Source of the DNA: Rhodothermales bacterium | Lineage (GTDB): Bacteria > Bacteroidota > Rhodothermia > Rhodothermales > ISCAR-4553 | Direction: 5' to 3' | NCBI GenBank assembly: GCA_026984335.1 | Contig: JALSSK010000429.1 | Location: 1 to 37,137 of the forward strand | DNA: 37,137 nt | Shown: positions 16,758 to 36,660 of the stretch, one piece after another | Numbering within the stretch: position 1 is the first letter of the stretch | How the letters are laid out: every line of letters starts with the position of its first letter | Position numbers and translations under genes: made by a program | The notes under the pieces: model-generated | The model's database searches: none | Seen by the model: only the letters and a program-made list of their open reading frames with translations | What the model was told of the DNA's origin: nothing

Positions 16758-16798
16758 CGGCATCTTCTCACTCGTGCTCTTTTCAACAGGCAAGAACT

Positions 16799-19420: not shown

Positions 19421-19444
19421 GACCCTGCCTTTACGCTGAGACTC

Positions 19445-20464
19445 ATGAGGTCTGTCATGAAACGAATTCTCTTTCTGAGCCTGTTGCTAACCGTTCTGGT
19501 CGTGTGGCCCGCCGAGGCGCAACGCAAGGCCGGACGCACCGGCGCTGCATTCCTCGAGGTGGGGATCGGGGCGCGCGAAGTTGCCCTCGGTTCCGCCGTG
19601 ACCGCTCTGGCCGGGGACGCGGGGCAGATCTTCTGGAATCCTGCCGGGACGGCCCTTACCGAGAACCGACGCGGCAGCGTCAGTTTCTCCTACGTAGACT
19701 GGATCGCCGACATCGAAGCCGGCGCCCTGGCCGCCGGGTATCGCACCGCCTACGGCACCCTCACCCTCGGCGTACAGTATTTCGGCCTCTCGGACATACC
19801 GGCCAACCGGCAGAATGGGTACACCGATCCCATCCTCCAGGGGCTCGTCACCGACACGGAGACGTCCCCTTCGTTCGACTACACCGACCTGGCCGTCAGC
19901 GTCTCCTATGCCCGCTACGTGCTCGACAGGCTGAGCCTGGGCGCCACCGTCAAGTACATCAATGAGAGCATCGACGGGGTCGGGGCGTCGGCTCTGGCGT
20001 TCGACTTCGGCTCGGTCTACCGGGTCGGTGTGGCGGGATGGCAGATCGCTGCGCGCCTGAGCAACCTGGGCACCGACATGTCCTTCTTTAACCAGGATAA
20101 CCCGTTGCCGCTGGTTTTCTCCATCGGCTCGACGATTTATCCGGTGAACCGGGAACAGATGCGGCTGATGTTGGCCATTGACACGACCAAGCCCCTGGAT
20201 TCCCAGCAACTGGTCTACGGCGGGGCCGAGTTGTCGTTCTACGATCTGCTGTTCCTGCGGGCAGGTTACCGGTTCAATTACGCCGGAGCCGAAGACGACG
20301 GCACCAGCACGCGCGACCCGATCAAAACCTCCATCGAGGGCATCTCGCTCGGCGCCGGCCTGCAGTATGCCCTCGGAGACTACGCCCTGGGTTTTGACTA
20401 TGCGTTCACGCAGATGGACCTGCTCGACAACGTGCACCGCTTCACCTTGCGGATCGGGATGTGA
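19445..20464 (+). CDS. PorV/PorQ-like outer membrane protein (UPF0164-type)
   Basis: RKAGRTGAAFLEVGIGAREVALGSAVTALAGDAGQIFWNPAGTAL is typical of the PorV/PorQ N-terminus. C-terminal beta-barrel QMDLLDNVHRFTLRIGM. Confidence 0.82.
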   Translation: MRSVMKRILFLSLLLTVLVVWPAEAQRKAGRTGAAFLEVGIGAREVALGSAVTALAGDAGQIFWNPAGTALTENRRGSVSFSYVDWIADIEAGALAAGYRTAYGTLTLGVQYFGLSDIPANRQNGYTDPILQGLVTDTETSPSFDYTDLAVSVSYARYVLDRLSLGATVKYINESIDGVGASALAFDFGSVYRVGVAGWQIAARLSNLGTDMSFFNQDNPLPLVFSIGSTIYPVNREQMRLMLAIDTTKPLDSQQLVYGGAELSFYDLLFLRAGYRFNYAGAEDDGTSTRDPIKTSIEGISLGAGLQYALGDYALGFDYAFTQMDLLDNVHRFTLRIGM

Positions 20465-20614: not shown

Positions 20615-22192
20615 TTGTTGAATGTCGAAACGTCTTCGGGCCGATGGGCCCCCTTCTGCGAGCAGATCGCCGCGTTCCTGGACGCCGACGTCGTCACGAT
20701 GACGGTTGATGGGGAAACGGTGCGTGGATACCGCAGCCCCGACTCGCCCGCGCTGTGGATACGGGATCATTCGGACATGCTGCGAGGTGGACGATATTTC
20801 TCTGAAGAGGTGCAGAGCGCCGTCGATTGTTTTGCCCGGCAACAGGCCGCCAACGGCCGCATCTTTGACTTCGTAACCCTGCAGCCCGTCGGCGGACGGG
20901 AGAACTGGGAGACGTGGGTGCGCGTGCCGGTTGAAGCGGACGTGGAATACCGCTTCGTAAAGGCCGCCTACCTGGCCTGGCAGGCCACGGGCGACGACGA
21001 CTGGATCGACCGGAAGCTGCCGGCCCTCGAACGCGCGTTGACCTATACGTTGACCCATCCCTGGCGCTGGGATGCACGGCACGGCCTGGTCAAGCGCCCC
21101 TATACCATCGACACGTGGGATTTCGACTACACGGCGGGCCGTCATCCCTGGCTCAATTTCCGGATTACGGACGAGACGTTCTGGGGGATCATGCACGGCG
21201 ACAACAGCGGCTTCTTCGAAGCGTCCCGCCTGCTGGCCCGGCTCTACGAACACGTGGGCGAAGAAGAACGGGCGGCCGTCTGGCGGGATCGAGCCGAAGC
21301 TTTGCGCAAGCGAGCCAACGACTTGCTGTTCAACGGTCGCTTCTACACCCATTTTTTCAGGCTCACCCCGGCCCCGGATCTCGGTGTCGACGAGCGTGAG
21401 CAACTGAGTCTGAGCAACCCGATGGCAATCAACCGGGGGCTGGCCGACCACGACATGGCCACGGCGATCTTGCGGGAGTACCGGAGGCGCCGCGTCTCGA
21501 GCGGCGCTTTCGCCGAGTGGTTCAGCATCGATCCGCCGTTCCCCGCCGGTATTTTCGGAGACGATCAGCTGACGCCGGGAGCCTACTGCAACGGCGGCAT
21601 CATGCCCCTGGTGGGCGGCGAACTGGCCCGGGCCTCCTTTGAGCATGGCTTCGAAGCGTATGGAACCGCGATACTGGAACAGTACCGGGACATGATTGTG
21701 GCGCAGCAGGCCTCGTATCTGTGGTATTTCCCCGACGGCGCCCCTTCCTCTGTCGAGACGAGCACAAGTCCCGAAGCCATGCCTACCGACGGCTGGGGTT
21801 CGTCGGCCATGCTGTATGCGTTTGTCGAAGGGCTGGCCGGCATCGTCGATCAGGGGCATTCGTTTCGGCAGGTGCGTCTGTCCCCCCGATGGGTGGCCGC
21901 GGGCGAACGGCTTGCCCGGGTGCGGGTCGGTTATCCTGCGGGGAGAGGGCGTTTCGGCTATGGCTTCGATCATGACCCGGATCGGCGCACCGTGCGTCTG
22001 AATCTCGAAGCCGAAGGCTCGGATGTGGCGCTGCGTTTGCTCCTGCCCTCCGGCGCGCGCGCGAGGAGGGTGCTGTGGGGCGGGCGGGAGGCGCCGTTCC
22101 GGGAGGAGCGGGTGGAGGCAAGCCGCTACGTGTGCGTGGAGGGGCGCGTCAAAGGTTGGGAGCGCGTGGAGGTGAGATATGAGAGCGCTTAG
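20615..22192 (+). CDS. Six-hairpin (alpha/alpha)6 glycoside hydrolase-like protein
   Basis: RGYRSPDSPALWIRDHSDMLRGGRYF, VEADVEYRFVKAAYLAWQATGDDDWIDRKLPALERALTY, GDDQLTPGAYCNGGIMPLVGGELARASFEHG. Start codon uncertain (TTG at 20615 in the track). Confidence 0.72.
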   Translation: MLNVETSSGRWAPFCEQIAAFLDADVVTMTVDGETVRGYRSPDSPALWIRDHSDMLRGGRYFSEEVQSAVDCFARQQAANGRIFDFVTLQPVGGRENWETWVRVPVEADVEYRFVKAAYLAWQATGDDDWIDRKLPALERALTYTLTHPWRWDARHGLVKRPYTIDTWDFDYTAGRHPWLNFRITDETFWGIMHGDNSGFFEASRLLARLYEHVGEEERAAVWRDRAEALRKRANDLLFNGRFYTHFFRLTPAPDLGVDEREQLSLSNPMAINRGLADHDMATAILREYRRRRVSSGAFAEWFSIDPPFPAGIFGDDQLTPGAYCNGGIMPLVGGELARASFEHGFEAYGTAILEQYRDMIVAQQASYLWYFPDGAPSSVETSTSPEAMPTDGWGSSAMLYAFVEGLAGIVDQGHSFRQVRLSPRWVAAGERLARVRVGYPAGRGRFGYGFDHDPDRRTVRLNLEAEGSDVALRLLLPSGARARRVLWGGREAPFREERVEASRYVCVEGRVKGWERVEVRYESA

Positions 22193-23066
22193 CTTCAACG
22201 GGCGCATCAGAACCCTGTCGGAAAGACAGGCGGCCCGTCTCCTGCTCCTGCCCACGATCCTGTTCTTTCTCCTTTTCCAGTACTACCCGATTCTCAAGAG
22301 CCTGGTTATCAGCTTCTTCGACTACGGGCTTTTACGCCGGAACACGCCCTTTGTCGGGCTGGAGAACTACCTGCGTCAGTTTCGGGACCCGCTGTTTCTC
22401 TCGGCGCTGGGCAACACGCTCCTGTTCGTGGCGGGGTGTGTAGCGGTCGGAGTAGCGCTGGCCTTGTTTCTGGCGGTGCTGGTTGAGAGCAGCGGTCGCT
22501 GGGCGAAGGTATACCGGACGCTCTACTTCATGCCGGTCGTCACCTCGCTCATGGCCACTGCCATGGTCTGGCGGTGGCTCTATGCCTCCAACGGCCTGAT
22601 CAACTTCCTTCTGACGTTGGTCGGCCTATCGCCGCAGGGCTGGTTGCTCGATGCGGAACTGGCTCTGCCTTCTTTGATGGCCCTGACGGTGTGGAAGAAT
22701 CTGGGTTTCGACATGATTCTCTTCGCGGCGGCTCTGCAGAGCATCCCGTCGGAATACTATGAGGTCGCCCGGCTGGAAGGGGCCACGCCATGGCAGGCGT
22801 TCCGTTTCGTCACGCTGCCGTCGCTCCGGTCCATCGTGGTGCTTGTGGGCATCACCGCAGTCATCCGGTCCTTCCAGGTGTTCACCATCGTGCTGGCCAT
22901 GACGCAGGGAGGGCCGGTCAACGCGACCCGAACCATCGTTTATCATATTTATGAACAGGGGATCCAGTACGACGAAATGGGATATGCTTCCGCGGCTGCG
23001 GCGGTGCTTCTGGCGCTCATCGGCGCTATGACGTACCTCCAGATGCGGATAGACAGGAAGCGATGA
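22179..23066 (+). CDS. ABC sugar transporter permease (MalF/UgpA-like)
   Basis: Multiple TM segments and the EAA-type motif YEVARLEGATPWQAFRFVTLPSLRSIV. Confidence 0.92.
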   Translation: MRALSFNGRIRTLSERQAARLLLLPTILFFLLFQYYPILKSLVISFFDYGLLRRNTPFVGLENYLRQFRDPLFLSALGNTLLFVAGCVAVGVALALFLAVLVESSGRWAKVYRTLYFMPVVTSLMATAMVWRWLYASNGLINFLLTLVGLSPQGWLLDAELALPSLMALTVWKNLGFDMILFAAALQSIPSEYYEVARLEGATPWQAFRFVTLPSLRSIVVLVGITAVIRSFQVFTIVLAMTQGGPVNATRTIVYHIYEQGIQYDEMGYASAAAAVLLALIGAMTYLQMRIDRKR

Positions 23067-23101
23067 AAGCACGGAACGTACGCGCATGAGCAGGGGAAAC
23101 G

Positions 23102-24379
23102 ATGTATAGACCAACACGCAGACGGTTTGTGACGAACCTCGGGCGGGCGGCGCTGGGAGCCGGACTCTTCGGAGCGATCGGGCCCCGGTGGGAACCGCCC
23201 CCGCCCCTGCCCGACCCCGGAGATCCGGACTACTGGCGTCTGGTGCGCCGGCAATACCCGCTCTCGCACGAGCGGGTCTACCTGAACACCGGCGGGCTGG
23301 GACCGGCTCCCTTTGCCGTGCTCGACGCCGTCGTTCACACGACCCGGTCGCTGCAGACGCTCTCGGAGACGGGGCATCACCTGATCGAAGAGACGCGTCC
23401 GGAGGTGGCGGCTTTCCTGGGCGCGGATCCGGACGAGGTCGCCTTCACGCGCAATGCTACCGAGGGGAACTCGGTCGTCGCCTCAGGCCTGGATCTGCGG
23501 GCCGGCGACGAGGTCATCTTCGAGTCCCATGCGCATCCCGGCGGCTCTTTTCCCTGGATGGTCCGGCAGAAGGAGGACGGGATCCGGGTCCGGATCTTCG
23601 AACCCGATCCGACGAGTGAAGAGGGCAACCTGGAGCGGATCGCCGCCCTGATCAACGAGCGCACCCGGGTGCTTCAGGTCAGCCACGTCACCGCCCCGAC
23701 GGGCATCCGCTTTCCGGTGGAGGCAATGGCCCGCCTGGCGCGGGACCGGGGCCTGTGGTTCCACATCGACGGGGCCCAGTCCGCCGGTATGATCCCGGTG
23801 AACCTGCATGCGATCGCTTGTGACTCGTATGCCGCGAGCGGTCACAAGTGGATGGGAGGGCCTCACGGAACGGGCGTGCTCTACGTGCGAAAGGACCGGC
23901 TCGACGAGGTGCGCCCCACGGAGACGGGAGCCTATGGGGACGATGGCGACGTGCAGCTACCGGAGCGGTTCGGCTACGCTCCCTCCGCGCGCCGCTACGA
24001 GGTGGGCACGCGCAACGCGTCGCTCGTGGCGGGGCTCGGCGAAGCGGTGAACTTTTTGGAGACGATCGGGATGAGGCGGGTGGCCGTCCGGGCGGGCGCG
24101 CTGGCGGCCTATCTACGGGAGCGCCTGCGCGCGCTCTCGGGTGTGACGATCCTCACCCCCGGCAAGGATAGCCTGGCCGCGGCCATGATCACGTTTCGTG
24201 TGGAAAAGCTCCCGTACCGGGAGCTCTATCGCTACCTGCTTGGCGAACACGGCCTGCGTTGCCGCATCGTCAGCGAACGGGGGTTGGATGCGCTCCGCGT
24301 CTCCACCCACATCTTCAACCAGGAAGACGAATGCGACCGCCTGGTCGAAGCCGTCCGCGCCGTCTCCGCCCGGCAATGA
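23102..24379 (+). CDS. Aminotransferase class V-fold PLP enzyme with Tat-like signal
   Basis: RPTRRRFVTNLGRAALGAGLFGA (twin-arginine-like), VAFTRNATEGNSVVASGL, FHIDGAQSAGMIPVNL, YAASGHKWMGGPHGTGVLYV (PLP lysine). Confidence 0.87.
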   Translation: MYRPTRRRFVTNLGRAALGAGLFGAIGPRWEPPPPLPDPGDPDYWRLVRRQYPLSHERVYLNTGGLGPAPFAVLDAVVHTTRSLQTLSETGHHLIEETRPEVAAFLGADPDEVAFTRNATEGNSVVASGLDLRAGDEVIFESHAHPGGSFPWMVRQKEDGIRVRIFEPDPTSEEGNLERIAALINERTRVLQVSHVTAPTGIRFPVEAMARLARDRGLWFHIDGAQSAGMIPVNLHAIACDSYAASGHKWMGGPHGTGVLYVRKDRLDEVRPTETGAYGDDGDVQLPERFGYAPSARRYEVGTRNASLVAGLGEAVNFLETIGMRRVAVRAGALAAYLRERLRALSGVTILTPGKDSLAAAMITFRVEKLPYRELYRYLLGEHGLRCRIVSERGLDALRVSTHIFNQEDECDRLVEAVRAVSARQ

Positions 24380-25305
24380 ACCGATCGATGCAGACCTCCC
24401 GGTCCATACCGTCCCCTCCCGATGCGCGGCCCGCCTCCGCCCACCCGTACTTCCGCCGCCTTTCACCGGGGTCGGCGGCGGTGCACGCCCTCCTGATCTT
24501 CGGGGCCGTCCTCATGGTCGGGCCTCTTCTCTGGATGATACTCACCTCGCTCAAAACCCCCTCTGACGCAGAGGCCTTCTTCAACACGCCGCACCGTTTG
24601 TCGGCCGTGCTCCGGGCGCTCTTGCCGCACCCGCTCACCTGGGAAAACTATAAGGCCGTTTTTACCGAGCGGCCCATGCTCCGGTACTTCCTGAACAGCG
24701 CGATCTACACCGGGTTGCGCATGCTGCCGGCGCTCTTTTTCTGCTCGCTGGCCGGCTTTCTCTTTGCCAAAATGAAGTTTGCCGGGCGGGACACGCTCTT
24801 TGGCGCGGTCATGCTCACCATGATGGTGCCTTTCCAGATCAAGATGCTGACGCTCTATGAGATGATGGTCCGCTTCGGATGGGTGGACACGTACTGGGCC
24901 GTCGTCGTGGTCGGCTTGATGGAGCCTTTCGGCATTTTCCTCTTTCGCCAGACGATCAAGGAGATCCCGGATGCGCTTCTGGACGCGGCCCGGATCGACG
25001 GGTGCGGGCCGTTGCGCATCTATTTCAGCATTGTGCTTCCGCTCATTCGCCCGGCGCTGGCCGCCTACGCCATCTTCCTGTTTATGTGGTCATGGAGCGA
25101 TTTCCTCTGGCCGCTCATCGTGATCAACACCGAGACCCTCAAGCCCGTCGAAGTGGGCATCCTGAGTTTCTCGGACATCAACAACCCGGACTATGTGAAG
25201 ATGATGGCGGCGGCGACGGTGGCGGCAGCGCCCATCATCGCCTTTTTCCTGCTCATGCAGCGGCAGTTCATTCAGGGGATCACCATGACGGGGCTGAAAG
25301 GATGA
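24376..25305 (+). CDS. ABC sugar transporter permease (MalG/UgpE-like)
   Basis: MVGPLLWMILTSLKTPSDAEAFF and EAA-type DALLDAARIDGCGPLRIYFSIVLPLIRPALA. Start set at the ATGA overlap. Confidence 0.92.
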   Translation: MNRSMQTSRSIPSPPDARPASAHPYFRRLSPGSAAVHALLIFGAVLMVGPLLWMILTSLKTPSDAEAFFNTPHRLSAVLRALLPHPLTWENYKAVFTERPMLRYFLNSAIYTGLRMLPALFFCSLAGFLFAKMKFAGRDTLFGAVMLTMMVPFQIKMLTLYEMMVRFGWVDTYWAVVVVGLMEPFGIFLFRQTIKEIPDALLDAARIDGCGPLRIYFSIVLPLIRPALAAYAIFLFMWSWSDFLWPLIVINTETLKPVEVGILSFSDINNPDYVKMMAAATVAAAPIIAFFLLMQRQFIQGITMTGLKG

Positions 25306-26672
25306 GTCGGATCGGAGAGAACATCGCCGGGCCCGGAGGGGGCGTCCTCGGCCACGGCGCCGCGTTTGGGAGCCTCGCCGTTCGAGCCATGCTGCTGGCG
25401 TGCTGGCTGCTGCCCGGCGCGGGGTGCGACGATGCGCCGGCGGAGCGGCAGCCGGACGGGCGCCTCCCCGTGCGCGTGTTCGTGCTGCTCATCAGCACCT
25501 CGCAGGTGGCTTTCTATCACTGGGCGGAGCAGGTCTACGAGGCCGCTCATCCGGACGTAGACATTCAGATCGAGCAGTTCCCGGGCAGTTCCCTGAAGGA
25601 TTTCGAGATCAAACTGCGGCTGCGCTTCGCCGGCGGAAAGGCGCCGGATCTTTTCCACGTCAACGCGAACGTGGCGGCCGAGTTGGCGCGGCTCGGGCTG
25701 CTGGACCCCGCGCCGCCCGAGATCGTGGCAATGGTCGACACGAACAGCGTCAACGAGATGGCCCGCACCGCTTCCCGCTTCGATGGGACGTGCTACGGGA
25801 TCGTCAGCGACGTCGTGTGGACGGCCCTCTATTATAACCGTGATCACTTCCGGGCGGCCGGGCTGGACCCCGATCGTCCGCCCCGCACGTGGGACGAACT
25901 GCTCGAGTATGCCGACCGCCTCACGGTGCGCCGTCCCGATGGGACCCCCATACGTGCCGGTTTGTCGTTGCGCAAGACCGGTTTCAAGGGAGGCACGGCC
26001 GAGAAGTGGCTGACGTTCCTGTTCTCGGCGGGCGGAGAGGCTTTCGACAAGGACGGCGTTCGCACGCTGATCAACAGCGAGGCCGGTCGGGCGGCGCTGG
26101 ACTTCTATGCCGAGGTCCTTTTCCGCCGCCGTATCGACGACGTGTCCCTGGAGGGGGATCAGCAGGGATTCGGGCAGGGACGGGTCTCTATGTTTCTCCG
26201 CGAGCCGCACGTCATCGGCTGGCTGGAGAAGAACTACCCGGATCTCGATTTCGGGGTGGCGGCGATTCCTCGCAGGGATACCTCGCTCAGCTCGGGGGGC
26301 GCCTACCTGTTCGCCGTCAGCAGGGCGTCGGTCCACAAGGAGGCGGCGTGGGCGTTCGCCCGGTTCCTGATGCAAGATTCGGTGTATGTGCGCTATGCGG
26401 CCGGCGGGAGCGTGTTGCCGGCTACCCGCTCGGTGGCTTCCGGGCCCGAATACACCGGCGACCCCCGGTGGCGCGTTTTTCTGGAACAGCCGGCCCGCAA
26501 CCCCGGCGGCTTCCCGCGTGTGGGCCGGGCCCTCGACATCCTGGGCGCGTACATCGAGCAGTTCGCCTACGGACGTCTCGGCGCGGAAGAGATGTTGCGC
26601 CTGGCCGAGCGGGACATGAATGCCGCGCTGGCTCCGAACCGGCGGCGACGCGAAGCGGAGGGGGCCCCATGA
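25302..26672 (+). CDS. ABC transporter extracellular substrate-binding lipoprotein
   Basis: Lipobox-like LLPGAGC; VRVFVLLISTSQVAFYHWAEQVYEAAHPDVDIQIEQFPGSSLKDFEIKLRLRFAGGKAPDLFHV; WAFARFLMQDSVYVRYA. Confidence 0.88.
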   Translation: MSRIGENIAGPGGGVLGHGAAFGSLAVRAMLLACWLLPGAGCDDAPAERQPDGRLPVRVFVLLISTSQVAFYHWAEQVYEAAHPDVDIQIEQFPGSSLKDFEIKLRLRFAGGKAPDLFHVNANVAAELARLGLLDPAPPEIVAMVDTNSVNEMARTASRFDGTCYGIVSDVVWTALYYNRDHFRAAGLDPDRPPRTWDELLEYADRLTVRRPDGTPIRAGLSLRKTGFKGGTAEKWLTFLFSAGGEAFDKDGVRTLINSEAGRAALDFYAEVLFRRRIDDVSLEGDQQGFGQGRVSMFLREPHVIGWLEKNYPDLDFGVAAIPRRDTSLSSGGAYLFAVSRASVHKEAAWAFARFLMQDSVYVRYAAGGSVLPATRSVASGPEYTGDPRWRVFLEQPARNPGGFPRVGRALDILGAYIEQFAYGRLGAEEMLRLAERDMNAALAPNRRRREAEGAP

Positions 26673-27499
26673 GCGCGCGAATGCCGGATATCGGGATCAT
26701 TACCGACGAGGTGGCGCCGGACCTGGCGGAGGCCCTGGAGACGGCTATGGGCTGGGGCCTCCGGCGATTCGAACTGCGCGAGGGCGGCGCAGGGCGTTTC
26801 CCGGCCTTTACCCGGGACGAGGTGCGGATCGCCGAGCAGGCGGCGGCGGCAGGAGCGCGCTTCACCGCCGTCTCTCCGGGACTGTTCAAGGGGGCGGTGG
26901 CCGACGAGGCCCGCCTGCGCCGCGAACTGGGGGACACGCTGCCCCGGGCCATCGCGCTGGCCGTGCGTCTCAGGGCGCCGGTGCTAATTCTTTTCGGCTT
27001 CGCACGCTATGAAGGCGAGCCGCCGACCGACCGCGCGCGGGTGATGCGGCGGCTCGAGCAGGCTGCCGCGTCGGCCGTCGAAGCCGGCCTCGTCGTGGCG
27101 CTCGAAAACGAGCCGCGTCACTGGATCGACCGTCCGGCGGACGCCGCCGCCATGCTCCGTGAGATCGGGCATCCGGCGCTCCGCCTCAACTGGGATCCGG
27201 CGAACCTGCACTGGGGCGGGCGCCGGCCCACGCGCGACGACTTCCTCGGCATACGGCCGCTGCTGGCCAACGTGCACGTCAAGGATTATTATCCGGATCG
27301 GCCCGAGGCGCCGTGGCTGCCCGTAGGGGAGGGCGTGACCCCCTGGGAAGAGATCGTGCCCTGGCTCGTTCGTGAGACGGATCTGCCCCACCTGACCATC
27401 GAGACGCATTGCGCGCCCCTGAAAGACTGTTCGAGGCGCAGTCTGGCCAACCTGCGGCGTTTGATCGACGCCGCCCTTTCCCGGGAGAAAATATCATGA
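26669..27499 (+). CDS. TIM-barrel sugar phosphate isomerase/epimerase family protein
   Basis: MPDIGIITDEVAPDLAEALETAMGWGLRRFELRE...VVALENEPRHWID...LRLNWDPANLHWGG...NVHVKDYYPDRPEAPWLPVGEGVTPWEEIVPWL. Confidence 0.88.
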   Translation: MSARMPDIGIITDEVAPDLAEALETAMGWGLRRFELREGGAGRFPAFTRDEVRIAEQAAAAGARFTAVSPGLFKGAVADEARLRRELGDTLPRAIALAVRLRAPVLILFGFARYEGEPPTDRARVMRRLEQAAASAVEAGLVVALENEPRHWIDRPADAAAMLREIGHPALRLNWDPANLHWGGRRPTRDDFLGIRPLLANVHVKDYYPDRPEAPWLPVGEGVTPWEEIVPWLVRETDLPHLTIETHCAPLKDCSRRSLANLRRLIDAALSREKIS

Positions 27500-28536
27500 C
27501 TGAGATCCTCCCCACGTTTGAAAACCCGGTGCGGCTGGCCATGGTCGGCCTGGGGGGACATGGCCGGACGATTCAACGGGCCGTTGCGGCGGCGCCCGCG
27601 TTGCGGGTCGTCGGCGTATACGATCCGGACGCGTCGGAGGCCCGGGCTGCTGCGGAGCGCTTCGGGTGCAGGGCGGCGCCTTCGTTCAAGTCGTTGCTCG
27701 GGCGGGGCGACGTCGAGGCCGTCACGCTCGTGACGCCCAATCATCTGCACCGTGCGCAGGCGGAGGCGGCCCTGGAGGCCGGCATGGACGTCTTCGTCGA
27801 AAAGCCCCTGGCCAACACCGTTGCCGACGGGCGGGCGATGGTGCGGGCGGCAGAGGCGAAAGAACGCATTCTGATGGTCGGGCACCATATGCGCTGGAGC
27901 CGCCCGGCGCGCCGGGCGAGGGCGCTCGTCGCGGGGGGGACCCTGGGCCGCATCGTCTCGGCGGAGATGCACTTCTCTTCCGACGCGGCCCGGGAGTTGC
28001 CCGCCGGCTCGTGGCGGCTGCAACCGGAAGCCGGCCCGCTGCTGCCCATGATGCAACTCGGCATTCACGGGATCGACCTGCTTCACTACCTGATCGGTCG
28101 GGTGGAGACCGTTCAGCCCCGTGCCGCTTCCGTGACGACCACGCCTCCGGTCGTCGATCACGTGGCGGTGCTGATGGGCCTGGTCGGGGGAGAGAGCGCC
28201 TTGCTGGTGACCAACTATTGCACCCCCGTTCGTTTTTCCTGGCGGCTGGCCGGCACCGAAGGAAGCCTGACCGGCACGCCGCATACGCTCAGCGTCACCG
28301 ACCGGCGCGGGGCCGTCGTCGAGACGCTCGACGTGAGCGCGGACCCCTATGCTGCGTACGTCGAGCAGATGGCGGCCTTCGCCCGCGCGGTCCGCAGCCG
28401 GTCGTCTCCCGAGAGCGACGGCTATACCGGCTTGCAGGCGCTGGCCGTCGTTGAGGCCATACACGCCGGCCTGGCGCGCCGCGCCGCCGTCGAAGTGCCG
28501 GCCTGTCCTTCTCATGCACGCAATAACCCTTCCTGA
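27496..28536 (+). CDS. Gfo/Idh/MocA-family oxidoreductase
   Basis: RLAMVGLGGHGRTIQRAV...VTLVTPNHLHRAQAEAALEAGMDVFVEKPLANTVADGRAMVRAAE. Confidence 0.92.
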   Translation: MTEILPTFENPVRLAMVGLGGHGRTIQRAVAAAPALRVVGVYDPDASEARAAAERFGCRAAPSFKSLLGRGDVEAVTLVTPNHLHRAQAEAALEAGMDVFVEKPLANTVADGRAMVRAAEAKERILMVGHHMRWSRPARRARALVAGGTLGRIVSAEMHFSSDAARELPAGSWRLQPEAGPLLPMMQLGIHGIDLLHYLIGRVETVQPRAASVTTTPPVVDHVAVLMGLVGGESALLVTNYCTPVRFSWRLAGTEGSLTGTPHTLSVTDRRGAVVETLDVSADPYAAYVEQMAAFARAVRSRSSPESDGYTGLQALAVVEAIHAGLARRAAVEVPACPSHARNNPS

Positions 28537-28543
28537 TCCTCTG

Positions 28544-30406
28544 ATGATGGCGCGACTGCTTCTTTCGGTGTTGCTCTTGCCGGTCTTCATATCGGGCTCG
28601 GCCGCTCAGGCTCGCCGGACTGCGACGCCGGGCGAGCTCGCCCGCGCCTACGAGGCGCGCCGCGACTCGCTCATCGAATACTTCGTCACCCGTATCCCGG
28701 ACGACGATCCGGACCGGGGCGGCTACTTCGACCTGGCGGCCCGCCTCTACCGGGGCGCCTGCGGGACCTGGTGCATCCGCCGGATGGATTCGCTCATGGC
28801 CCACCCGCGCGGAGATATGTTCTGGATGTATCCCTTCGTCACGGTCATGTACAATGACCGTGGAACCTTTCCCGAAACGACCCGCCGCAAGATGCGCGAG
28901 CTGTGGCGTAGCTATACGCCCTACCGGGGCGACACCGAGAACCACTGGGCCCTTTATTATACCTCCCTCTACCTTGCCGCGCAGATGTACCCGGGTGAGC
29001 CGGATACGACCTGGTTCACGGGAAAGAGTTCGCAGGAAAATATGGAGGAGGCTCGCTCGTATCTGATCTCGTGGATGGACCTGACGACAAGCATCGGACA
29101 GGGAGAGTATGACTCGCCGCACTACCTCCGGGTATACCTCGCGCCGATGGCGTTGCTCTATGCCTACGCTCGGGACCCGGCCATGCGCCGGCGCGCCCGC
29201 ATGATGCTGGACTACCTGCTGGCCGATTTCGCCGCCGAGAGCCTGGGGGGGCTGCCGGGTGGAGCGCACAGCCGAATCTATGAGCGTGAAGTGATCCGTC
29301 CGTTCAAGGCCCCGGGCGGCGCTCCGACCTCCTGGCTGCTCTTCGGCAACGTCCCGTTCCAGCCCACCGGCGAAACCCTGATTCTGGCTCTGAGCGGCTA
29401 TGTCCCCCCGCCCATCCTGCATTTCATCGCTACCGACCGCAGCAAGCCCTACGTTCACCGGGAGCGAAAACGCACCCGCCATCGCATACGCTACAGCCGG
29501 GTGCGCAATGCGCCCGTTTACAAATATACCTATATGCGGCCCGAATATGTCCTCGGCTCGACGCAGGGCGGCTTGCTCCAGCCCATCCAGCAACAGACCT
29601 GGAGCCTGGTCTGGCGGGTGGACGATCCCCGCGAAGCGCGCAATACCCTCTTCTCACTTCATCCGTACTCGTCTCCCGTAGAGCTGGGTATGTACTTCGC
29701 GGAGTTGCAGGAGTTCATCACCGAGATTGTCGTCCGCTCCAAGAAAGCGTACGACTCCCCGGACAAGCTCACCGGCGGATCGCCCTATGAGCAGGTCTTC
29801 CAGCATGAAGATGCTCTGATAGCGCTCTACGACATTCCGCCCGGCACGCGCTTCCCGCACGTCAACGCCTTCTTCTCAGGAGATCTTCGGGATCTGAAGG
29901 AGGATCGTTCCGGCTGGATATTCGCGCGGGGAGGAGACGCGCTCATCGCCGTGTATCCGCTGGCGCCCTTCCGGTGGGAAGAGCAGTCCGACGTCTGGGA
30001 TGCGCAGCGAAAGCATCGTCGGCTCGTGAGTCCTCATCTGAAGAACGGCTTCGTGGTGCAGGTGGCGCCCGCGCGGGCCTACGCGTCGATGGAGGCTTTC
30101 CGGGAGGCCGTGCGGGCTTTGCCGCTTACGGTTCGGACCGAGCCGCGGCCGTCGGTGCGCTTTACCACGCTGCGCGGCGCCGAGCTGGCGCTTACCTACG
30201 GCCGGACGCCCCGCCTCGACGGAGAACCGGTAGACTACGACGGATGGCCCCTCTTCGACGGCCCCTTCCTCCGCGCCGAGAAGGGCAGCCGACGTCTCGA
30301 GATGCGTTACGGTCCCATGCACCGCCTGCTCGATTTCAACACCCTCACGATTCGGGAATGGGTGGATGATTCCACCGAGAACCGGCAAGCTTCCGATATG
30401 CAATGA
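28544..30406 (+). CDS. Uncharacterised secreted protein, lyase-like (alpha/alpha toroid + beta-sandwich suspected)
   Basis: Signal peptide MMARLLLSVLLLPVFISGSAAQ. NHWALYYTSLYLAAQMYPGEP, GQGEYDSPHYLRVYLAPMALLYAYARDPAMRRRARMMLDYLLADFAAESLGGLPGGAHSR, then a beta-rich C-terminal half. Confidence 0.55.
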   Translation: MMARLLLSVLLLPVFISGSAAQARRTATPGELARAYEARRDSLIEYFVTRIPDDDPDRGGYFDLAARLYRGACGTWCIRRMDSLMAHPRGDMFWMYPFVTVMYNDRGTFPETTRRKMRELWRSYTPYRGDTENHWALYYTSLYLAAQMYPGEPDTTWFTGKSSQENMEEARSYLISWMDLTTSIGQGEYDSPHYLRVYLAPMALLYAYARDPAMRRRARMMLDYLLADFAAESLGGLPGGAHSRIYEREVIRPFKAPGGAPTSWLLFGNVPFQPTGETLILALSGYVPPPILHFIATDRSKPYVHRERKRTRHRIRYSRVRNAPVYKYTYMRPEYVLGSTQGGLLQPIQQQTWSLVWRVDDPREARNTLFSLHPYSSPVELGMYFAELQEFITEIVVRSKKAYDSPDKLTGGSPYEQVFQHEDALIALYDIPPGTRFPHVNAFFSGDLRDLKEDRSGWIFARGGDALIAVYPLAPFRWEEQSDVWDAQRKHRRLVSPHLKNGFVVQVAPARAYASMEAFREAVRALPLTVRTEPRPSVRFTTLRGAELALTYGRTPRLDGEPVDYDGWPLFDGPFLRAEKGSRRLEMRYGPMHRLLDFNTLTIREWVDDSTENRQASDMQ

Positions 30407-31425
30407 TGCGAGCGCTCCCTGCTGTCCTTGGCCTGGTCTTCCTCTCCGTCGTGTCGCCGGAGCGGGCGGCGGCTCAGTCCACCGCCGCCGATCCGGTCCT
30501 TTATGCCGGATACATCCTCTCGAAAGGCTACGTCGTCGGGGGGCCTCTGGCCGAGAGCGGTCTCCTTCGGCGCGGGCCGGACGGGCAGTGGGTGCATCTG
30601 GGCCCCAACAATCCGCGCGTCAATGCCCTGAGTTATGATCCGGCCCGGCCCGAGACGCTCTTCGTCGCTGCCGGGAACGGGGTCCTTCGCTCCTTCGACG
30701 GAGGACGGAACTGGCGCATCACCACGGACTGGCGCGTCACGGAGGTGCAAGACGTGTCCGTCGATGCGCATGCCGACGGCTTCGTCTATGCCGGCGCCGC
30801 CTACGGCATCTGGCGCTCGGAGGACGGGGGCGAGAGCTGGCATGAGGCCGTAGGCGGCCTTCCCGAGGGCAAGACCTACACCGAAACCATCGAGGCGGAC
30901 CGCACGACGGCGTACCGCGTCCTGGCCGGCACCGATGACGGCATTTACGTCTCGACCGACGGTGCGCGCCTGTGGCTTCGCGTGGGCCTGCCCGGGATCG
31001 AGGTGCTCGACCTTCAGCAGAGCCGCTCCGAGCCGGAGGTCTGGCTCGCCGGCACGTACCGGCACGGCCTCTATCGCTCGACGGACGGCGGGCGCACCTG
31101 GCAGCCCGGCCCCGCCGAATGGGCCGGCCACAGTATCCACGCCGTCGCCATCGACCCGCACGACGGCCGGCGCATGGCCGCCGCCGGGTGGGACACCGGG
31201 GTGCTCGTCTCCACCGATGGCGGGCGCACCTGGTCCCGCCGCGGCCGCGCGCTCCCCACCGATGATTTCTATGAGGTGGCCTTCGATGCCGCCACGCCCG
31301 GACGGATCCTCGCGGCCACCCTCGAAGAAGGCCTCTTCGCTTCGGACGACCTCGGACGCAGTTGGACCCCTCAGGGACTTGCAGGGAGCCTCATCTTTGA
31401 CCTCGCCTTCGTCTATCCACGCTGA
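30403..31425 (+). CDS. Secreted BNR/sortilin-type repeat protein (exo-alpha-sialidase/PSII-stability-like beta-propeller)
   Basis: Repeated S-x-D-x-G-x-x-W Asp-box motifs: SFDGGRNWRI, SEDGGESWHE, STDGGRTWQP, STDGGRTWSR, SDDLGRSWTP. Signal peptide at N-terminus. Confidence 0.83.
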   Translation: MMRALPAVLGLVFLSVVSPERAAAQSTAADPVLYAGYILSKGYVVGGPLAESGLLRRGPDGQWVHLGPNNPRVNALSYDPARPETLFVAAGNGVLRSFDGGRNWRITTDWRVTEVQDVSVDAHADGFVYAGAAYGIWRSEDGGESWHEAVGGLPEGKTYTETIEADRTTAYRVLAGTDDGIYVSTDGARLWLRVGLPGIEVLDLQQSRSEPEVWLAGTYRHGLYRSTDGGRTWQPGPAEWAGHSIHAVAIDPHDGRRMAAAGWDTGVLVSTDGGRTWSRRGRALPTDDFYEVAFDAATPGRILAATLEEGLFASDDLGRSWTPQGLAGSLIFDLAFVYPR

Positions 31426-31450
31426 TGTTTCATCCATACCCCGGTTGGCC

Positions 31451-32257
31451 ATGAATACCGACACCGATACGGCTCTTTTTCGACGACCCTACGAAGTGAC
31501 CGACGAGCAGGTCGCCTTCTTCCGCGAAAACGGTTATGTACGTTTCGACGGCGTGCTCTCCAGGGAGGAGGTCGAAGCGTTGCGGGACGCACTGGAGCGG
31601 GCGACGGCGGCCAAACAGGCTTTCAGCCGCGACTTGGCCGGCGAGGGCAACAAAATCCTCCAGATGCTCAATCTGTGGGAGCACGACGACGTCTTTCGTG
31701 CCTATTCGACCAGCCCGCGTCTGGCCCGCATGGCCGCCCGTCTGACCGGCAGCCCCTCGATTCATCTTTTTCACGATCAGGCGCTCGTCAAGCCGCCCGG
31801 CCCCAGCGCTCCTTCTCCCTGGCACCAGGATCAGCCCTACTGGCCCTCGAGAGAACCCGGCATGATCTCCTGCTGGATGGCGCTCGACGACGTTTCCATC
31901 GACCGGGGAGCCATGCAGTTCATCCCCGGCTCGCATCGCTGGGGAGAGTTTGCCCCGGTCTCTTTCGCCGGTGAGGGACCCGCCCTCATCGACATGATCC
32001 CCGAGCCCCTGCGCGCGAAGTGGAACCCCGTGCCCGTTGAACTCCGGGCGGGCGACTGCACCTGGCATCATGGCCTCACGTTCCACTATACCCGCCCCAA
32101 CACGACCGCCCATACCCGCCGGGCCATTGTCACGATTTATATTCCTGAGGGGATCACCTATGCCGCAGAGGACAAGATGGAACACCCGCTCTCTCCGACG
32201 ATCACCAGTCGCAGCGGGGAGCCGCTGCGGGGGACGAAGTTTCTCCGGCTGCTGTAG
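31451..32257 (+). CDS. Phytanoyl-CoA dioxygenase (PhyH) family Fe(II)/2OG oxygenase
   Basis: VTDEQVAFFRENGYVRFDGVLSREEVEALRDAL, SPWHQDQPYWP (HxD), AMQFIPGSHRWGEF, WHHGLTFHYTRPNTTAHTRRAIVTIYIP. Confidence 0.9.
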   Translation: MNTDTDTALFRRPYEVTDEQVAFFRENGYVRFDGVLSREEVEALRDALERATAAKQAFSRDLAGEGNKILQMLNLWEHDDVFRAYSTSPRLARMAARLTGSPSIHLFHDQALVKPPGPSAPSPWHQDQPYWPSREPGMISCWMALDDVSIDRGAMQFIPGSHRWGEFAPVSFAGEGPALIDMIPEPLRAKWNPVPVELRAGDCTWHHGLTFHYTRPNTTAHTRRAIVTIYIPEGITYAAEDKMEHPLSPTITSRSGEPLRGTKFLRLL

Positions 32258-32355: not shown

Positions 32356-33726
32356 GTGATCGATCTCAAACACACATTGTCCCCGGAGGCTCTTTTGCCG
32401 GGCATCGAGAGGATGTGGGAGGTTTCGGCGGCGAAGATCCTGGCCCTTGAGAGGGACTTCGAGCCGGCCCGGGGGGCGCCCGTTTTCACGGTGGAGGGGC
32501 GTTACATGGCCCGGGGCTGGACCGACTGGACCCAGGGCTTTCGGTTCGGGTCCGCGCTTCTGCAGTTCGATGCCACGGAAGATCGGTCTTTTCTGGAACT
32601 GGGGCGGCGGAAGACGCTGGCTCACATGGCCTCGCACGTCACGCACACGGGCGTGCACGATCACGGCTTCAACAACGTGAGCACTTACGGGGCCTTGCGC
32701 CGCCTGATGAATGAGGGACGCATCCCGGAAGCGCTGTGGGAACGGGCTTTTTACGAACTGGCGCTCAAAGCTTCCGGAGCCGTGCAGGCTGCCCGTTGGA
32801 CGGAGCTGGCCGAGGGATACGGGTATGTCTATTCCTTTAATGGGCCGCATTCGCTCTTCGCGGACACGATCCGTTCCATGCGAGCACTGGCGCTGGCGCA
32901 CCGGCTGGGCCACGTGCTGATGGGGGAGCATGACGCTCGCATCTCTCTTCTGGAGCGGATGGCGCGTCACCTGCGCACGACGGCTCGCTTCAACGTCTAT
33001 TATGGCGAGGGGCGGGACGGCTATGACGTGCCGGGGCGCGTCGCCCACGAGAGCATCTTCAACCTGAAGGACGGCAGCTACCGGTGTCCGAGCACCCAGC
33101 AGGGATACGCGCCTTACACCACGTGGACGCGCGGCCTTGCGTGGATCATGCTGGGGTTCGCCGAGCAACTCGAGTTCCTCGATACGCTGCCGGACGAGGA
33201 GCCGGCTCCCCCGGAGGGATGGGAGGGGCTCGTCGCTCTGTTGCGGCGCGCGGCCCGCGTCACGTGCGACTTCTACATCGCGGAGACGCCCGCCTGTGGG
33301 GTGCCGTACTGGGACACGGGCGCGCCGGGACTGATCCACCTGGGGGACTACCGGAGCCGCCCGGCGGATCCCTTCAATCCCTACGAGCCGGTGGACAGCT
33401 CGGCAGCGGCCGTCGCTGCGCAGGGGCTGTTGCGTCTGGGGCATTACCTCGACGGTCACGGGGCGGACGGCGCGCGCTACCGGGCCGCCGGCCTTCGCGT
33501 GCTGGCCACGTTGCTCGAGGCCCCCTATCTGAGCAGCGACGCCGCGCATCATGGTCTGTTGCTGCATGCCGTCTATCACTGGCCCAACCGGTGGGATCAC
33601 GTGCCTCCCGGCCGTCAGGTAGCCTGTTGCGAGGCCACGATGTGGGGGGATTACCACCTCCGGGAACTGGCCCTCTACGTGCAGCGACTGGCGCGGGGAG
33701 AACCCTATTACACCTTTTTCGGATAG
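32356..33726 (+). CDS. GH88-like unsaturated glucuronyl hydrolase
   Basis: HDHGFNNVSTYGALRRLMNEG, PGRVAHESIFNLKDGSYRCPSTQQGYAPYTTWTRGLAWIMLGFAEQLEFL, YWDTGAPG. Layout consistent with GH88. GTG start. Confidence 0.72.
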   Translation: MIDLKHTLSPEALLPGIERMWEVSAAKILALERDFEPARGAPVFTVEGRYMARGWTDWTQGFRFGSALLQFDATEDRSFLELGRRKTLAHMASHVTHTGVHDHGFNNVSTYGALRRLMNEGRIPEALWERAFYELALKASGAVQAARWTELAEGYGYVYSFNGPHSLFADTIRSMRALALAHRLGHVLMGEHDARISLLERMARHLRTTARFNVYYGEGRDGYDVPGRVAHESIFNLKDGSYRCPSTQQGYAPYTTWTRGLAWIMLGFAEQLEFLDTLPDEEPAPPEGWEGLVALLRRAARVTCDFYIAETPACGVPYWDTGAPGLIHLGDYRSRPADPFNPYEPVDSSAAAVAAQGLLRLGHYLDGHGADGARYRAAGLRVLATLLEAPYLSSDAAHHGLLLHAVYHWPNRWDHVPPGRQVACCEATMWGDYHLRELALYVQRLARGEPYYTFFG

Positions 33727-33729
33727 CCT

Positions 33730-34629
33730 ATGCCAAGATCCCGATCGATGCCGCCGGCCTCGTTCGACGAGCGGACCGGCGCCGAGGTGCGGGAAGGGTT
33801 GCCGCCGCCGCTGAGCGATCTGTCCCGGCTCTGTATTCATACCGAAACCACGAGTCCGTGGAAGCTGCCCGAGGCGGCTTCAGCCTATGAACGGGCCGGT
33901 GTCCCCGCCATCACCGTCTGGCGCGAGTCCGTAGCCGGGCACGGGCCGGCAGAGGCGCGCCGCATCCTCGAAGATCATGGTCTGGAGATCGTATCCTACG
34001 TTCGGGGCGGCTTCTTTGCGGCGGCCTCGTCGGCCGCCCGCCGTGCGGCCGTTGCGGAGAACGTCCGGGTCATCGAGGAAGCCGCCACGCTGGGGGCTCC
34101 GCTGGTGGTGCTCGTCTGCGGAGCCGTGCCGGGGCAGCCCCTCGAGACGTCGCGGGCGCAGATCCGGCAGGGGCTCGAGCACATCGTGCCTTATGCCGAG
34201 GCCGCCGGGGTGCGCCTGGGCATCGAGGCCCTGCACCCGGTCTATGCCGACAGCCGCTCGGCCATCAACACCCTCCGGCAGGCCAACGACCTGGCCGAGA
34301 CGCTCGACACACCGGGCCTCGGCGTCGTCGTGGACGTCTATCACCTCTGGTGGGACCCCGACCTCCGAAAGGAGATCGCCCGCAGTGGCCGAAACAACCG
34401 GCTCTTCGCCTTCCACATCTGTGATTGGAAAACGCCCACCACACACCTGCTCCTCGATCGCGGCCTGATGGGAGAGGGGTGCATTCCGCTTCGCCGGATC
34501 CGTGGATGGATGGAGGAGGCGGGCTTCGAGGGGCATTATGAAGTCGAGATCTTCTCGGAGATCTACTGGCGGGAGGACCAGCGCGAATTCCTGGAAAAAA
34601 TCAAACGCGCGTATCTTGCCCATACCTGA
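33730..34629 (+). CDS. TIM-barrel sugar phosphate isomerase/epimerase family protein
   Basis: LCIHTETTSPWKLPEAASAYERAGVPAITVWRES...VRLGIEALHPVYADSRSAINTLRQANDLAE...LGVVVDVYHLWWDPDLRKEIAR. Confidence 0.9.
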   Translation: MPRSRSMPPASFDERTGAEVREGLPPPLSDLSRLCIHTETTSPWKLPEAASAYERAGVPAITVWRESVAGHGPAEARRILEDHGLEIVSYVRGGFFAAASSAARRAAVAENVRVIEEAATLGAPLVVLVCGAVPGQPLETSRAQIRQGLEHIVPYAEAAGVRLGIEALHPVYADSRSAINTLRQANDLAETLDTPGLGVVVDVYHLWWDPDLRKEIARSGRNNRLFAFHICDWKTPTTHLLLDRGLMGEGCIPLRRIRGWMEEAGFEGHYEVEIFSEIYWREDQREFLEKIKRAYLAHT

Positions 34630-34640
34630 AGGGAGACGTC

Positions 34641-35858
34641 ATGGCGCAGCAAAAAAACGACAGGTCTGAAACGCATACGTCCCGGCGGGCGTCCCCGGAG
34701 GGGGCTGCCGTCGTGCACCGGGTGGGCATCGTGATGAACGGGGTCACCGGGCGGATGGGCGCGAACCAGCATCTCCTTCGATCCGTCAAAGCCATTCGCG
34801 ATCAGGGAGGCGTCCGTCTGAACGACGAAGAGGTCATCCTTCCTGATCCGATCCTGGTGGGGCGCAACCCGGTCAAGCTGGCGCGACTGGCCGAGATCTC
34901 CGGTCTCGAGAAATGGACGACGGACGTCGAGGCGGCGCTGGAGGACCCCGCCTATCCCGTCTATTTCGATGCCCAGACCACGAGCCGGCGGGCCGAGGGG
35001 GTGCGAAAGGCCATCGAGCTCGGCAAGCACGTTTACTGCGAGAAACCGACGGCCTTGACCACCGCCGAAGCGCTGGCCCTCTACGAGGCTGCCCGGGATG
35101 CGGGCGTCAAGCACGGCGTGGTGCAGGACAAGCTATGGCTGCCCGGGCTGATGAAGCTCCGTATGCTTCGCGACACCGGATTCTTTGGGCGCATCCTTTC
35201 CGTGCGGGGCGAATTCGGCTACTGGGTCTTTGAGGGCGACGCCGTTCCGGCCCAGCGGCCGTCCTGGAACTACCGGAAGGAGGACGGCGGGGGCATCATC
35301 CTGGACATGCTCTGTCACTGGCGCTACGTGCTCGAGGATCTCTTCGGCCCGGTGCGGGCCGTCTCGTGCCTGGGGGCCACCCACATCCCGCGCCGGTGGG
35401 ACGAGCACGGCCGCCCCTACCCCGTCACGGCCGACGACAGCGCCTATGCCACGTTCGAACTGGAAGGCGGCATCGTCGCCCATTTCAACAGTTCATGGTG
35501 TGTCCGCGTTCGGCGCGACGACCTCCTCACGATCCAGGTCGACGGCACGAAGGGCTCGGCGGTGGCGGGCCTGCGCCGTTGCTGGACGCAGGCCTACGGC
35601 AATACGCCCCGACCCGCCTGGAATCCGGACGTGCCGCAGCCGATCGACTTCTTCGACGGATGGCTGGAGGCGCCCGACCAGCGGACGTACGACAACGCCT
35701 TCAAGGCGCAGTGGGAGCTCTTCCTCCGTCACGTGGTGAAAGACGAACCGTTCCCCTACGATCTCTTGGCCGGGGCCCGGGGGGTGCAACTGGCCGAACT
35801 GGGCCTGGCTTCATGGCGGCGTCGCGCCTGGGTCGATATACCCCCTCTGGCTCCGTAA
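34641..35858 (+). CDS. Gfo/Idh/MocA-family oxidoreductase
   Basis: GIVMNGVTGRMGANQHLLRSV...YFDAQTTSRRAEGVRKAIELGKHVYCEKPTALTTAEALALYEAARDAG. Confidence 0.88.
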   Translation: MAQQKNDRSETHTSRRASPEGAAVVHRVGIVMNGVTGRMGANQHLLRSVKAIRDQGGVRLNDEEVILPDPILVGRNPVKLARLAEISGLEKWTTDVEAALEDPAYPVYFDAQTTSRRAEGVRKAIELGKHVYCEKPTALTTAEALALYEAARDAGVKHGVVQDKLWLPGLMKLRMLRDTGFFGRILSVRGEFGYWVFEGDAVPAQRPSWNYRKEDGGGIILDMLCHWRYVLEDLFGPVRAVSCLGATHIPRRWDEHGRPYPVTADDSAYATFELEGGIVAHFNSSWCVRVRRDDLLTIQVDGTKGSAVAGLRRCWTQAYGNTPRPAWNPDVPQPIDFFDGWLEAPDQRTYDNAFKAQWELFLRHVVKDEPFPYDLLAGARGVQLAELGLASWRRRAWVDIPPLAP

Positions 35859-35892
35859 AACGTCATATCTCTTTCCCATGTCAGAGAATTGC

Positions 35893-36660
35893 ATGAAACG
35901 ACTTGCCCTGATCACCGGCGGCGCCTCCGGCATTGGCCTGGGGATCGCCGAAGCACTGGCCCGGGAGGGCTGCGACCTGCTGCTGTGCGGTCGGCGTCCC
36001 GAAGGGGCGGTCGCCGAGCCGCTCGACCGGTTGCGGGCCATGGGGGGCGCGGTCGCATACGTCTCGGCCGACGTGGGGACGAGGACGGGTCGGGAGGCCG
36101 TCGTCGCGGCCGCTCGTGCCCTGGGACGGTTGCACGTGTTGGTCAACAACGCCGGCGTCGCTCCGGTGGATCGGCGCGACCTGCTCGAGGCTACCGAGGA
36201 TAGTTTCGACCGCGTCCTGGAAGTGAACCTCAAGGGCCCCTATTTCCTCACGCAGGCCGTCGCCCGGTGGATGATCGTGCAGCGCGAGGCCGACCCTGCC
36301 TACCGCGCCGCCGTCGTCAACGTCGGCTCCGTCTCGGCCACGATGGCCTCGGTGGAACGGGGCGAGTACTGCGTCTCGAAGGCGGGCCTGGCCATGGCGA
36401 CGCGTCTGTGGGCGGTGCGGCTGGGCGCCTACGGCATCCCCGTCTACGAAGTGCGCCCCGGCATCATTCGGAGTGACATGACCGTCGCCGTACGGGAGAA
36501 ATACGACCGCCTCATCGCCGACGGGCTGCTGGTGCAGCCGCGCTGGGGAGAACCCGGAGATGTCGGCCGCGCCGTCGCCATGCTCGTCCGGGGCGAGCTG
36601 CCGTATTCGACCGGGCAGGTCGTCATGGTCGATGGCGGCTTGCATCTGGAGCGGCTGTGA
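35893..36660 (+). CDS. Short-chain dehydrogenase/reductase
   Basis: MKRLALITGGASGIGLGIAEAL (TGxxxGIG), LVNNAGVAP, EYCVSKAGLAMATRLWAVRL (YxxxK), STGQVVMVDGGLHLERL. Confidence 0.93.
   Translation: MKRLALITGGASGIGLGIAEALAREGCDLLLCGRRPEGAVAEPLDRLRAMGGAVAYVSADVGTRTGREAVVAAARALGRLHVLVNNAGVAPVDRRDLLEATEDSFDRVLEVNLKGPYFLTQAVARWMIVQREADPAYRAAVVNVGSVSATMASVERGEYCVSKAGLAMATRLWAVRLGAYGIPVYEVRPGIIRSDMTVAVREKYDRLIADGLLVQPRWGEPGDVGRAVAMLVRGELPYSTGQVVMVDGGLHLERL

Follow-up and report, generated by a model that had tools for sequence, protein, structure and literature searches.

The secreted 620-aa protein studied here, encoded in a 37,137-nucleotide stretch of Rhodothermales DNA (the window), belongs to a real and conserved family that is without a Pfam or NCBIfam model. 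We regard it as probable that this is a new family of polysaccharide lyases working with a BNR/Asp-box propeller subunit, where we infer both the catalysis and the complex. The family extends across several phyla and is acidic-glycan-lyase-like, which would point to polysaccharide breakdown still unannotated in the Verrucomicrobiota and Rhodothermales, and its near-perfect linkage to the propeller gene, together with two gene fusions, makes a two-component lyase directly testable.

The gene and its family

The ORF translates without a stop over its 620 codons, and although the frame can be extended upstream to position 28349, the ATG at 28544 yields a normal Sec-type signal peptide (MMARLLLSVLLLPVFISGSAAQA; Table 1). 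A hydrophobic N-terminus is present in 57 of 60 family members. The original prediction, made from the DNA alone, had described a secreted 620-aa protein, and the open frame, the Sec-type leader and the motifs that it quoted were all recovered. A scan of GTDB genomes yielded 70 loci with relatives sharing 39-66% identity with the protein, mostly from the Opitutales and other Verrucomicrobiota, Rhodothermales, KSB1 and Ignavibacteria, the named sources including Opitutaceae/Puniceicoccaceae/Pelagicoccus, Ignavibacteriales and one Bryobacteraceae MAG; amongst genomes of the same phylum the gene was found in 11 of 398. Eight residues (F93, G129, G185, E188, Y194, R244, R312 and Q420) are invariant in an alignment of 59 sequences, in which the main motifs are RGDTENHW, GQGEYDSPxY and GAHSR. 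Since relatives from several phyla retain the same residues, the ORF is not a chance reading frame.

Single-sequence and alignment searches gave no relevant Pfam or NCBIfam match for any of the 59 members and, in the PDB sequences, nothing related to the protein, the heparinase II/III HMMs PF07940 and PF16889 had no match at E <= 1 in any of the 59, and the PL8 HMMs Lyase_8 and Lyase_8_N matched neither the query protein nor the 59 members. Against Pfam, NCBIfam and PDB sequences, the earlier statement that no known PL family could be recognised thus holds, and literature searches found no published work on the family. Two matches, one to the L16 ribosomal protein (E 0.2) and one to GNAT (E 0.002, in two of the 59 members), were dismissed as chance.

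Table 1. Features annotated in the window around the lyase-like gene, with the basis for each.
Feature	Coordinates	Strand	Basis
Sec-type signal peptide, about 23 aa	28544..28612	+	By inspection
Lyase-like secreted protein, toroid + beta-sheet, 620 aa	28544..30406	+	Translation, alignment, AlphaFold2, Foldseek
Helical toroid domain, residues 29-297	28628..29434	+	AlphaFold2
Antiparallel beta-sheet domain, residues 303-607	29450..30364	+	AlphaFold2
Secreted BNR/Asp-box beta-propeller protein, 340 aa	30403..31425	+	Pfam Sortilin-Vps10/BNR; adjacency; fusions
ORF with PhyH-type dioxygenase	30935..32257	+	PF05721 1.2e-42; syntenic across Rhodothermales loci
GH88-like unsaturated glucuronyl hydrolase relative, 456 aa, no signal peptide seen	32356..33726	+	PF07470 2.2e-4; PDB UGL 1vd5
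Xylose-isomerase-like TIM barrel protein	33730..34629	+	PF01261 1.2e-39
Gfo/Idh/MocA oxidoreductase 2	34641..35858	+	Pfam; syntenic with lyase in Rhodothermales
SDR oxidoreductase	35878..36660	+	NCBIfam NF009386 over cut-off
Gfo/Idh/MocA oxidoreductase, start at internal Met of ORF 27409-28536	27496..28536	+	PF01408 1.3e-28
Sugar-type ABC importer: two permeases and solute-binding protein, with class-V aminotransferase-fold protein between	22179..26672	+	Pfam/NCBIfam

Predicted fold and candidate active site

The AlphaFold2 model, calculated with the family alignment as input, has a mean pLDDT of 94.0 and a pTM of 0.92, and its helical first half followed by an antiparallel beta domain (Table 1) bears out the layout proposed in the original prediction. 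When the full-length model was compared with the PDB using Foldseek, all 18 matches at E <= 1e-3 were polysaccharide lyases of the toroid + beta type, from families PL12, PL33, PL8, PL35, PL17 and PL39, with E-values of 8.9e-7 for 4mmh (PL12), 2.9e-6 for BtPL33, 6.8e-6 for AC lyase (PL8), 1.6e-5 for GAGase VII and 3.4e-5 for PL17, and a probability of 1.00 for most of them. This uniformity supports the proposed architecture. TM-scores against these lyases were 0.21-0.40 at about 10% identity, so the relation to known lyases is a remote one. In a library of viral structures an uncharacterised protein ranked first, and behind it came an occlusion-derived virus envelope protein and ODV-E66, a baculovirus chondroitin lyase of family PL23. 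The resemblance to ODV-E66 is likewise at the level of the fold and lies near the threshold (E 1.3e-3, 6% identity), and the present protein differs in being bacterial and paired with a BNR protein.

The toroid was also modelled and searched separately in order to raise the TM-score. On its own it gave no match at E <= 1e-3. The best matches were to generic toroids, with heparinase III (E 0.17), PL38 (0.33) and chondroitinase (0.59) amongst them, and our residue-level assignments are correspondingly tentative. The lyase signal in the model thus appears to be carried by the whole architecture rather than by the toroid alone, and the earlier reading of the protein as a lyase stands as regards the toroid + beta architecture, whilst toroid-alone and profile-profile comparisons were not significant. 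The toroid-only list also bears on whether the protein could be a glycoside hydrolase or another toroid enzyme that has just the architecture in common with lyases, since GH76, GH88, GH105 and exo-oligoxylanase folds occur there beside PL38 and heparinase III, none of them significant, and GH63-type enzymes come after the lyases in the full-length list. We consider this unlikely: the full-length list consists exclusively of lyases to rank 19, the first glycoside hydrolase has a probability of 0.21, and we singled out no conserved Asp/Glu pair of the sort that inverting hydrolases typically have, although E188 is invariant.

For a lyase, the usual catalytic set of the superfamily combines a neutralising Asn with a Tyr 53-60 residues further on and with a beta-domain His (PMC12088678, PMC11848413, PMC12915356); the Asn-Tyr spacing is 60 in PL40 (N245-Y305; PMC12915356) and 53-57 in several other lyase families (PMC12088678, PMC11848413). 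From conservation and spacing, the best active-site candidates in the present family are N133 and H134 (each 58/59), Y194 (59/59) and R244 (59/59), E188 being conserved in all 59 as well; Y194 follows N133 by 61 residues and R244 lies a further 50 residues on. No His of the beta domain is conserved in the 59 members (H305 33/59, H373 38/59, H421 31/59, H439 38/59), whereas PL12, PL15, PL17, PL33, PL35, PL39 and PL40 all use one. Comparison with the Hepar_II_III_N sets and PL8 using hhalign gave E-values of about 0.06-0.5. The alignment with two Hepar_II_III_N sets is suggestive, since N133 and Y194 meet the conserved Asn and Tyr of both, but the scores are no better than those of shuffled columns and the roles given to these residues are therefore putative. 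The hhalign match to PL8 is not convincing: its score of 21.9 is slightly above the 20.0 of the best shuffle, but the wrong residues were paired.

Like members of PL12, PL33, PL35 and PL40, the protein is secreted and has a two-domain architecture (for PL40, PMC12915356) with a putatively equivalent Asn and Tyr about 53-61 residues apart, and its N133/H134/Y194 pattern comes nearest to that of PL40, where an Asn-Trp/His pair goes with a spacing of 60 residues. It is unlike PL12, PL33 and PL35 in sequence (about 10% identity, TM 0.24-0.36), and unlike all four families in that it is without a conserved beta-domain His or a Pfam heparinase match and is tightly linked to BNR genes. PL8 enzymes have an Asn/Tyr/Arg set in the toroid and no beta-domain His, and the lyase-like family, with its candidate residues, would resemble them in the first respect, resembles them in the second and, for chondroitin AC/xanthan lyase, matches at the level of the fold (TMq 0.39). 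It departs from PL8 in the absence of a Lyase_8 match or any convincing profile match, and the catalytic His found nine residues before the Tyr in PL8 is missing.

Gene neighbourhood and substrate clues

Upstream of the lyase-like gene lie the ABC importer and a Gfo/Idh/MocA gene, and downstream of it the PhyH, GH88-like, xylose-isomerase-like, second Gfo/Idh/MocA and SDR genes (Table 1). Part of the PhyH ORF lies over the BNR gene in a different frame, so the true start of the dioxygenase gene is probably near 31.4 kb. The GH88-like gene, which the original prediction had placed beside the lyase gene, encodes a genuine GH88 relative but is not the next gene, the BNR/Asp-box and PhyH genes intervening. 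Its family profile matches the unsaturated glucuronyl hydrolase UGL 1vd5 at E = 1.5e-13, and its catalytic motifs are kept, HD102HGF, D170, TRGLAW, VDSSAAA and WGDY being unchanged across five relatives, D102 and D170 lying in GH88-like motifs where their equivalence was judged by eye. It differs from GH88 in having a diverged N-terminal half and in scoring 20.8 bits, short of the 26.6 bits at which Pfam sets its gathering cut-off. The GH88 gene set is common to the Rhodothermales loci, where it lies downstream of the lyase-like gene, fitting the expectation of unsaturated uronides.

The neighbourhood bears on a further reading, namely that the protein is a uronyl C5-epimerase resembling human DS-epi1. 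PL33-type lyases and DS-epi1 have both the toroid + beta fold and an active-site Tyr in common (PMC11848413), and the missing conserved beta-domain His would also suit an epimerase, but the GH88 relative at the locus belongs to a family whose known substrates are unsaturated uronides, the surrounding genes are catabolic rather than genes for polysaccharide synthesis, and the protein is secreted and its gene lies beside importers, all of which makes an epimerase distinctly unlikely.

Amongst the 70 loci, neighbours include a GH78 rhamnosidase (28, in Verrucomicrobiota), heparinase II/III-like genes (12), an ADH pair (10) and NagB-like genes (5). All of these, like the GH88 relative, are compatible with acidic-glycan breakdown but name no glycan, and the GH88, GH78, heparinase-like and NagB-like neighbours differ by lineage; the GH78 gene beside many Opitutaceae copies suggests a rhamnose- and uronate-containing glycan there. 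The source genome (a 4.36-Mb assembly in 532 contigs) contains two sulfatase matches and no heparinase II/III-C homologue. No KduI homologue was found in it either, so that there is no clear sign of the route by which unsaturated uronates are usually handled.

Several other genes were noted in the window and at related loci. The class-V aminotransferase-fold protein (23102-24379) has a Tat-like leader and resembles PvdN/SufS (NCBIfam), and its homologues occur near the lyase gene in many Opitutaceae loci. An MGH1-like toroid glycosidase relative (20615-22192, weak PF22422) has a homologue of 54% identity next to the lyase cluster of an Ignavibacteriales locus (L054), and a 761-aa ORF on the minus strand without a Pfam match (10449-12731) has a 46%-identical homologue at the start of the same locus, adjoining the MGH1-like gene. 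Genes similar to heparinase II/III (PF07940) lie near family copies at L032:4852-6891 and L054:11747-13813. The region 13803-20464 of the window encodes a TonB-dependent receptor together with a PorV-like protein and a large protein whose C-terminus is type IX secretion-like, and is preceded by an IclR regulator.

The propeller partner and proposed mechanism

A BNR homologue lies within 600 bp and on the same strand in 95 of the 96 family genes with resolvable flanks. Conversely, exactly seven genomes of the searched phylum contain BNR homologues at E < 1e-30, all of them with a lyase-like gene nearby on the same contig, and weaker BNR matches in two further genomes (G165 and G209) are also beside a lyase gene. 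The two proteins are fused in a single ORF at L053:1203-3938 (912 aa) and L049:8908-11823 (972 aa), loci from different phyla, with the propeller half joined without its signal peptide. The linkage and the two fusions support a physical partnership outside the cytoplasm, and the BNR propeller is probably a partner subunit that binds the lyase or its substrate. The same linkage and fusions would suit a non-catalytic glycan-binding or scaffold protein serving a propeller that is the true enzyme, given that some Asp-box propellers, xyloglucan hydrolases among them, are glycosidases and that the BNR protein has as its closest PDB relative an entry named 'Glycosyl hydrolase, BNR repeat', but the polar residues of the toroid motifs ENHW, GEYDSPxY and GAHSR are very strongly conserved in the manner of an active site, and we give this reading very little credence. 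No toroid lyase is known to us to have such a propeller partner.

For a lyase acting with the propeller, we also infer residue roles and an import route. The cleft that separates the helical toroid from the beta domain would take up a glycan containing uronic acid. There the +1 carboxylate would be neutralised by N133 together with H134, and Y194, aided by R244, would be the acid or acid/base of the beta-elimination. The propeller protein would bind the lyase or the substrate outside the cytoplasm and, in Rhodothermales, the ABC transporter may then import unsaturated oligosaccharides to be opened by the GH88-like enzyme. A more specific proposal, in which the family is an obligate two-subunit complex of toroid lyase and Asp-box propeller, dispenses with a beta-domain His and acts on a rhamnose/uronate-type glycan, is offered tentatively, as a possibility that we rate below even.

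The near-universal BNR partner had not featured in the original prediction. The sole exception amongst the 96 is a divergent family copy of about 32% identity (L024:5048-6883), which stands without a BNR neighbour.
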